Part shown: positions 25,278 through 26,452 of the stretch, piece by piece
How positions within the stretch are numbered: the first letter of the stretch is position 1
How the letters are laid out: each line of letters opens with the position of its first letter
NCBI GenBank assembly: GCA_017443065.1
Contig: JAFSPF010000096.1
Coordinates: 58,966 to 122,965, forward strand
DNA: 64,000 nt
Source: Lachnospiraceae bacterium
GTDB taxonomy: Bacteria > Bacillota > Clostridia > Lachnospirales > Lachnospiraceae
Direction of reading: 5' to 3'
The notes under the pieces: model-generated
Seen by the model: only the letters and a program-made list of their open reading frames with translations
What the model was told of the DNA's origin: nothing
The model's database searches: none
Made by a program: the position numbers and the translations under genes

Positions 25278-25293
25278 TTTGACAATGGTCAAA
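25278..25293. promoter_or_regulatory. 16-bp perfect palindrome upstream of the iteron promoter
   Basis: TTTGAC and GTCAAA flank a four-base centre AATG. It sits 15 bases before the -35 box of the ATPase promoter and could be an operator. Confidence 0.4.
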
Positions 25294-25307
25294 CACGATG
25301 TCACTGA

Positions 25308-25336
25308 TTGACAGAAGATATACAAAGATATATAAT
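25308..25336 (+). promoter_or_regulatory. Consensus promoter of the iteron-linked ATPase
   Basis: TTGACA (25308-25313) and TATAAT (25331-25336) are perfect and 17 bases apart. The first two iteron units overlap the spacer and the -10 box, so a protein bound to them would block RNA polymerase. Confidence 0.85.
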
Positions 25337-25412
25337 ATTTTCATTGATATATAGAGATATATAAGAATTCAGAACATATATAAGGATATATAACATTCAG
25401 AAAGATATATAA
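25317..25412 (+). repeat. 29-bp iteron array built from paired GATATATAA units
   Basis: Seven copies of a GATATATAA-like 9-mer begin at 25317, 25327, 25346, 25356, 25375, 25385 and 25404. The steps alternate exactly 10, 19, 10, 19, 10, 19. This gives three full 29-bp units, each a pair of 9-mers one helical turn apart, plus a final single copy next to the ATG at 25415. The first unit overlaps a consensus promoter. The array looks like a phased binding site for an autoregulator. Confidence 0.85.
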
Positions 25413-25414
25413 AA

Positions 25415-26452
25415 ATGAAGCATAACCCGTATACGATGATATTTGGGAAGGAGCCTTCCCAATCCATAACAAGGCTGATGCAGACGGATGAAATTATCAC
25501 GCAGTTCCTGTCCGAGCCGCCGGCACAGCAGATCTATATGATTACCGGTGTGCGCGGCAGCGGAAAAACCGTTTTTCTGACGGAAATTGCAAAGAAAATC
25601 GGGGCGGAAAAGAACTGGATTGTCACAGAGTGTAATGCGGCGAAAGATCTGCTTACCGGTCTTGCATCCGGCCTGTATCACGATAATCGTCTGACGTCAT
25701 ATTTCAAATCCGCAAAAATCAACCTTTCTGTTTTTGGCATAGGCATTGAGATCAGCAGGGCCGAACCGATCACGGACATTGAAATCGCTGTGAGACGTAT
25801 GCTGGAAACCGTCCGGGATAAGAAAAAGAAAGTACTTGTCACGATTGACGAGGTGACAAATACAAAGCAGATGCGGGAATTTGCGAGTGCCTTTCAGATT
25901 ATGGTCAGGCAGGATCTTCCGATTTTTCTGCTGATGACGGGATTGTATGAAAACATTGATGTTCTGCAAAACAATAAGGCGATGACCTTTTTACATCGTG
26001 CGCCCAAGATTCATCTGAAGCCGCTGAATATCGGCTCTATTGCATCAAACTACCGTAAGGTTCTTTCCGTCAACGAGGCGGATGCTTTGCAGATGGCAAG
26101 AATGACGCGCGGCTATCCGTTCGCGTTTCAGGTTCTGGGATACTATACATTTGAACATAACGGACACTATGAGGAAGCGTTGCCTCTGTGTAAACAATAT
26201 CTGGAAGAATATGCTTACGATAAAATCTGGTCGGAACTGTCCCGTTTGGACAAGCGTATATTAAAAGCGCTTGCCGCCTCAAAGACCGGAAGTGTCAGTG
26301 AAATCCGGGAAGACCTTGGGATGACACCGAATCAGTTCGGCTCCTACCGGAACAGGTTGCTCAAACGCGGCCTGGTGAACGGGGACGAATACGGTTATTT
26401 ATCACTGTCGTTACCGTTCTTTGAATCCTATATCGAAACCCATCAGACATGA
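25415..26452 (+). CDS. Orphan P-loop ATPase with C-terminal winged helix
   Basis: The 345-residue protein has Walker A GVRGSGKTVF (near residue 48) and Walker B VLVTIDEV (near 143), and resembles the archaeal-type/STAND-like ATPases seen in many Firmicutes. Its last 60 residues (ILKALAAS...SEIREDLGMTPNQF..RNRLLKRGLV) read as a winged helix-turn-helix, a possible DNA-binding part. It follows a 29-bp iteron array that reaches the start codon, and no spaced ribosome binding site is evident there. Base composition is more AT-rich than in rsgA, suggesting acquisition. Autoregulation through the iterons is an inference; the cellular role is unknown. Confidence 0.75.
   Translation: MKHNPYTMIFGKEPSQSITRLMQTDEIITQFLSEPPAQQIYMITGVRGSGKTVFLTEIAKKIGAEKNWIVTECNAAKDLLTGLASGLYHDNRLTSYFKSAKINLSVFGIGIEISRAEPITDIEIAVRRMLETVRDKKKKVLVTIDEVTNTKQMREFASAFQIMVRQDLPIFLLMTGLYENIDVLQNNKAMTFLHRAPKIHLKPLNIGSIASNYRKVLSVNEADALQMARMTRGYPFAFQVLGYYTFEHNGHYEEALPLCKQYLEEYAYDKIWSELSRLDKRILKALAASKTGSVSEIREDLGMTPNQFGSYRNRLLKRGLVNGDEYGYLSLSLPFFESYIETHQT

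Follow-up and report, generated by a model that had tools for sequence, protein, structure and literature searches.

A candidate private operator of phased boxes over the promoter of a P-loop ATPase gene found at many sites in Lachnospiraceae and other bacteria

We analysed a 64,000-nucleotide stretch of DNA from a Lachnospiraceae bacterium (the window), in which seven 9-mer boxes run in strict phase from the promoter of a P-loop ATPase gene to its start codon. The reading that we favour, to which we give a probability of roughly 70%, is that this array acts as a private operator within a movable and self-contained cassette of one gene; its ATPase would bind its own array and repress itself. 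A limited literature search, which is weak evidence of novelty, found no description of this ATPase-array pairing. The features of the locus, with positions counted from the first letter of the window, are as follows.

25308..25336, forward strand: sigma-70-type promoter, TTGACA, a 17-nt spacer and TATAAT, 12 of 12 consensus positions
25317..25325, forward strand: iteron 1, GATATACAA, within the -35/-10 spacer
25327..25335, forward strand: iteron 2, GATATATAA, overlapping the -10 hexamer
25346..25354, forward strand: iteron 3, GATATATAG
25356..25364, forward strand: iteron 4, GATATATAA
25375..25383, forward strand: iteron 5, CATATATAA
25385..25393, forward strand: iteron 6, GATATATAA
25404..25412, forward strand: iteron 7, GATATATAA, adjoining the start codon
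25415..26452, forward strand: ATPase gene, 345 aa, PF01637-type P-loop NTPase with a probable C-terminal winged helix
26449..29034, forward strand: next ORF, beta-lactamase-fold and NamZ (exo-muramidase) protein, overlapping the ATPase stop by ATGA

The array proper occupies 25317-25412. Its GATATATAA-like boxes start at intervals of 10, 19, 10, 19, 10 and 19 nt, with 2 nt between the last of them and the ATG at 25415; no clear Shine-Dalgarno sequence was seen by eye at iteron 7 and the start codon. When 9-mer pairs with at most one mismatch were counted at lags of 10, 19, 29, 39, 48 and 58 in the 105 nt 5' of the ATG, 64 were found, against a mean of 1.3 (s.d. 2.0) and a maximum of 15 in 2000 dinucleotide shuffles. 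A preliminary description of this DNA had reported the seven boxes and their 10/19 alternation between promoter spacer and start codon, and these counts confirm it. The perfect promoter that it placed beneath the array is likewise present (-35 TTGACA at 25308-25313, -10 TATAAT at 25331-25336). The range then given to the feature, 25278..25415, holds for the array and starts too early: positions 25278-25293 are a separate perfect inverted repeat, TTTGAC-AATG-GTCAAA, just 5' of the promoter and outside the array.

Among homologues, the same pair-lag peaks (10, 19, 29, 39, 48 and 58) recur and are absent from controls. A step of 9.71 bp fits best over 151 loci, and 90% of the 9-mer pairs in these loci fall within 1 bp of the resulting lattice, where 30% would be expected under uniformity. 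Spacings of 10 account for 351 of 671 and spacings of 19 for 176, the commonest block pattern is 2-2-2, and arrays with at least four phased boxes hold 4-10 of them (median 6). It was correct to say earlier that paired boxes sit one helical turn apart, and the fuller rule is a lattice of about 9.7 bp (29/3) whose slots are often empty. An ordered filament on the array would fit such a lattice. Two arrays (L054 and L114) have 11/19 spacing in place of 10/19, with a 30-bp period. Since the boxes are AT-rich and tandem, one might suppose that they arose by expansion of simple sequence and have no function, which we consider barely credible. Boxes within an array are 88% alike, a figure partly built in because boxes were chosen by likeness, whereas the gaps between doublets are 43% alike (35% if shuffled). 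Spacing that stays constant while gap sequence drifts indicates that recent slippage is not the source, and the family-wide lattice and its register with the promoter also argue against expansion.

The array belongs to a gene family rather than to one gene. The preliminary description called the ATPase an orphan, which stands for the locus and fails for the gene: the genome of origin carries 8 copies, the other 7 being 24-51% identical to the window protein, and relatives occur on 41 plasmid records. An array was scored as present when at most one of 200 shuffles equalled it, and all 8 own-genome copies pass. By eye, their boxes differ: GATATATAA, CCTATAA/GATATAA, ATTATATAG, ATTATAGTG, AATAGATAA, GTTCTAAAA, TGCCTAAAA and GACAGATTT. 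We gathered 120 loci, one with too little upstream DNA, which left 119; five of the loci are second fetches of identical sequence and L038-L117 are the best 80 of 516, so that close relatives are over-represented. Homologues lacking repeats had been named beforehand as the outcome that would speak against the pairing. The outcome was the opposite: arrays precede 111 of the 119 (the exceptions are L045, L053, L070, L075, L098 and three viral contigs). Arrays also stand before 38 of 40 additional copies from the genus, and even the two that do not pass retain spaced boxes. The 40 come from a genus search with 97 matches, of which 37 were in the main set; from the other 60 we excluded 15 that were fragments or lay at contig ends, and 5 more contained in other loci. 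Neighbouring ORFs, serving as controls, pass in 16 of 229 cases, at least one of which (L076) reads by eye as the array of a sister copy. In the same genome, three longer proteins with a PF01637 match share the P-loop NTPase domain of PF01637/STAND archaeal-type ATPases and, unlike the cassette, have no array within 200 nt (0 of 3). We here define an array-bearing ATPase cassette family by a 10/19-lattice array upstream of the gene, and the window copy belongs to it.

As far as sequence records go, the spread of this family is patchy. The genus search found homologues in 41 of 61 genomes, own included, yet an even sample of the phylum, with at most 10 candidates scored per genome, gave matches at 1e-20 in just 2 of 199 genomes, namely the genome of origin and one other member of its genus. 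Passing homologues come from records of Lachnospiraceae, Coriobacteriales, Treponema, Acholeplasmatales, Streptococcus, Limosilactobacillus and Alloscardovia. Many of these records are MAGs. A homologue from Streptococcus and another from Atopobiaceae do not pass. Six of the 10 plasmid relatives examined have significant repeats, clearly on the lattice in L173, L174 and L177, weakly so in L176, and with other spacing in L178 and L180. A few units in L175 and L179 are suggestive but fall short of significance, and no repeat units were seen in L181 and L182. In L178, a Rhodococcus plasmid, two long repeats lie 53 bp apart upstream of position 2986, off the 9.7-bp lattice. Phages contributed one weak phage record and three weak viral contigs, none of which passes the array test.

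The window protein belongs to PF01637 (ATPase_2), which it matches with 36.0 bits against a curated cut-off of 33.2, and all 83 aligned homologues match the family at E 1e-3. Walker A (GVRGSGKT) lies at residues 45-52 and Walker B reads VTIDEV; G45, R47, G48, G50, K51 and T52 of the former and D145 and E146 of the latter are invariant in the 83. A C-terminal winged helix at about residues 267-340 is probable: HTH_24 matches residues 275-321 of the window protein under its cut-off (E 0.021) and 7 of the 83 homologues at E 1e-3. The architecture proposed at the outset, a P-loop ATPase ending in a winged helix, is thus upheld for the first domain and probable for the second. Sequence searches against the PDB gave no convincing solved relative. 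dN/dS is 0.03-0.14 in nine of ten pairs (the tenth is not computable, and dS exceeds 1 in several), values that show strong purifying selection. Profile searches also brought up nSTAND similarity alongside PF01637, and on this ground a selfish or defence-type single-gene element might be imagined, in which the STAND-like ATPase acts as a sensor and the array is merely a throttle on its expression. The patchy spread and the presence of copies at different sites would suit such an element, as would the matches in PADLOC. The latter are all weak and of P-loop or HTH type (best E 1.7e-5), and no well-fitting NCBIfam, PHROGs or defence family was found for the window protein. The protein moreover ends soon after the winged helix, with no further domain seen in the Pfam search, and its neighbours read by eye as mostly ordinary genes; we regard a sensor of this kind as unlikely.

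The position of the boxes speaks for an operator. Four or more phased boxes are present in 111 arrays, and 90 of these begin close to a promoter match of 9/12 or better, against a shuffle expectation of 26. In 58 of these 90 the -10 starts 13-17 nt past the start of box 1, and the commonest -35 start is 8 nt 5' of box 1 (27 of 90), offsets which are blurred by a few bases through the choice of 9-mer frame. In this register box 1 lies within the promoter spacer and box 2 over the -10, which is a repressor-like layout; the array has the operator-like overlap with its own promoter expected of an autorepressor. That box 2 covers the -10 would also explain why many boxes have a TATAA-like core. Activation of the promoter by ATPase on the array, in place of repression, would also be compatible with the sequence. 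The position of box 1, ahead of the predicted transcription start, suggests that the target is DNA; an RNA element was considered and rejected for the same reason, and there was no Rfam match at E 0.1.

Does each ATPase recognise its own boxes? We scanned 335 sliding ten-residue windows of the protein for how well each predicts likeness between boxes once the remainder of the protein is allowed for. The leading window is 305-314 (partial r 0.28) in 79 of the 83 aligned homologues, 304-313 (r 0.29) in 106 homologues and 302-311 (r 0.22) in 146 pooled, and the residual permutation p is 0.0005 in both the 106 and the 146 sets, by statistics that ignore phylogeny. These windows fall where the recognition helix of the winged helix is expected; by eye we had assigned a putative one to about 302-316. 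The 40 added copies alone, a set dominated by a few clades, give a partial r of 0.06 (p 0.16), with windows near 152 and 36 on top, and in a residue ranking F335, Y88, K260 and Y326 stand above the best helix residue, S310. We take the covariation as moderate support for self-binding, and rate as likely the earlier suggestion that the ATPase binds its own iterons. With up to two mismatches, the box pair of the window occurs at 5 places in its own genome, 3 in its own array and 2 weak; the reversed control pattern occurs at 3. Mutual exclusion of equal boxes within a genome was also considered and dropped: none of 7 within-genome pairs above 50% identity shares a motif, and overall just 162 of 963 pairs (50-63% identity) do, so that the absence among the 7 carries no weight; one MAG, moreover, holds two copies 94% alike (L078 and L083).

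Under the operator reading, the winged helix at the C terminus would carry the ATPase onto its boxes, with each step of about 9.7 bp taken by a single subunit, and neighbouring subunits would line up from the -35/-10 spacer across the -10 box into the leader. Such an assembly would shut off the ATPase's own promoter together with whatever gene is transcribed from it by read-through. Assembly or release would probably be set by the binding or hydrolysis of ATP, giving a self-limiting switch.

Array and gene together (about 1.15 kb) occur as one unit, found in near-identical copies at unrelated sites. One genome (G008) shares 1,120-1,121 bp with four others at 97.6-97.9% with no match in the flanks, and two copies in one MAG (L078 and L083) are 94% identical over 1,177 bp between flanks without similarity. 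Two genomes (G035 and G047) have the cassette at two different places of one syntenic region, which contains transketolase-like, nitrogenase-like and tpiA-like genes (all names but nitrogenase were read by eye), and G047 retains 56 nt (87.5%) matching the sequence just past the cassette stop at the other site. At the window locus, the first ORF after rsgA reads by eye as an ATPase in 0 of 29 relatives and as a histidine phosphatase in 19. No transposase or terminal repeat was seen within the unit, so host recombination is as likely as self-movement. Some apparent relocations were set aside: L024, L025 and L026, taken at first as the cassette in three contexts, proved in a genus-wide DNA search to be one locus with indels beside the cassette, and L040/L042 and L059/L061 share some flanking DNA.

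The surroundings of the unit bear on a further explanation, that ATPase and array form a portable regulatory module placing the next operon under ATP-gated control. In the window, the ATPase stop overlaps the start of the beta-lactamase-fold/NamZ ORF, a possible read-through target though not a conserved partner, and in 35 of 117 loci mechanical ORF calls put the start of the next ORF on the same strand no more than 33 nt away. At seven loci (L010, L011, L013, L014, L015, L018 and L019) the next gene reads by eye as a sugar transferase. Arrays also occur without the ATPase: AAGTATATA arrays precede an IspD and zinc-dehydrogenase operon in three genomes and a Uma2-family gene in two. Downstream genes are otherwise diverse over the 117 loci, with no recurrent partner except in one clade, and the longest following ORF is on the opposite strand in 38 of 117; we think it improbable that control of the next operon is the general role. 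In the ATPase-less loci, boxes spaced at about 10/19 lie near 1470-1630 before the IspD-like gene (L231, L232 and L236, with the zinc dehydrogenase next in L231), and near 1485-1670 before the Uma2-family gene in genomes G028 and G027 (L233 and L234), of which G028 yielded no ATPase homologue in the genus search. ORFs and families were searched in one genome per kind, the others being judged from the gene start. L235 (about 1390-1510) looks like a decayed cassette, an array followed by the apparent last ATPase codons, and G048 has an intact copy beside the same gene; a seventh region fetched for its AAGTATATA array is part of an intact cassette. The IspD and Uma2 arrays suggest that arrays can outlive, or act without, a linked ATPase.

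Could the array instead be a replication origin, which the ATPase opens at its AT-rich boxes and onto which it loads helicase, the chromosomal copies being integrated or degenerate replicons? In iteron-Rep plasmid modules, the adjacent gene encodes a protein that binds tandem direct repeats and represses its own synthesis. The cassette differs in having its boxes inside promoter and leader, and no plasmid Rep family was found among the Pfam (25 of 28 listed), NCBIfam and PHROGs matches of the window protein. A closer parallel comes from haloarchaea, where, in the passages of the two papers that we draw on, genomes carry several Orc1/Cdc6 paralogues, origins depend specifically on the co-located gene and origins lie at distinct places in related chromosomes (PMC3528665, PMC3936714). 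As far as those passages go, multiple paralogues with gene-adjacent, copy-specific AT-rich boxes at different sites resemble these orc/cdc6-ORB pairs, and Orc1/Cdc6 with its gene-adjacent cognate boxes may be the nearest evolutionary analogy; the same passages have ORBs marking replication origins, whereas the boxes of the cassette form a tandem lattice over a promoter. TIGR02928 (orc1/cdc6) is matched weakly by 7 of the 83 homologues (best E 9.1e-5); the window protein itself has no NCBIfam match at E 1e-3. Some weight might be given to the plasmid relatives, and in particular to pNP95 (NZ_CP043029.1; L249 and L250), where the cassette lies among polysaccharide genes with no annotated Rep in PLSDB's incomplete table. 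The boxes, however, are direct repeats in register with the ATPase's own promoter and run toward its start codon, a single genome assembly holds eight copies, the window contains no GC-skew switch, and no replication gene recurs downstream. On these grounds we depart from the preliminary description, which had likened the geometry to partition or replication-initiator sites, and hold an origin to be a poor bet.

For partition systems, the instructive comparison is with the type Ia ParA proteins of F, P1 and P7, which, in the part of the review cited here, are winged-helix ATPases that bind cooperatively to repeated boxes around the -35/-10 of their own operon, with paired boxes 26-29 bp apart (PMC8465637). 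The same part gives ParA a deviant Walker A motif, a wHTH at the N terminus, boxes in inverted pairs and ParB/parS as partners. On that account the cassette is alike in combining a winged-helix ATPase with phased boxes across its own promoter, to which we infer that it binds, and differs in its GVRGSGKT motif, its C-terminal wHTH, its direct repeats on a 9.7-bp lattice, and in being a single gene at varied sites with no recurrent downstream partner found. No ParA family is among the Pfam matches of the window protein (25 of 28 listed). Within the limits of that partial account, we would treat type Ia ParA as the nearest working analogy.

We see the cassette as a new form of self-regulating DNA-binding ATPase; there is a real chance that it represents a new class of element. 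In a more ambitious version, which we put forward tentatively and would not yet bet on, the class would be one of mobile single-gene elements, new to description and present in several bacterial phyla. In it a STAND/AAA-type ATPase would polymerise on a private 9.7-bp box lattice that is also its own promoter; box and recognition helix would change in step, and many mutually independent copies could thereby coexist in one genome. An uncharacterised ATPase family, often multicopy per genome, in any case gains a precise candidate DNA target for each of its members, which makes its biochemistry directly testable, and with it comes a natural library of ATPase-operator pairs of changing specificity. 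The question that this raises is what leads bacteria to retain several such self-targeted switches, which occur as one unit at many sites and perhaps control little else.
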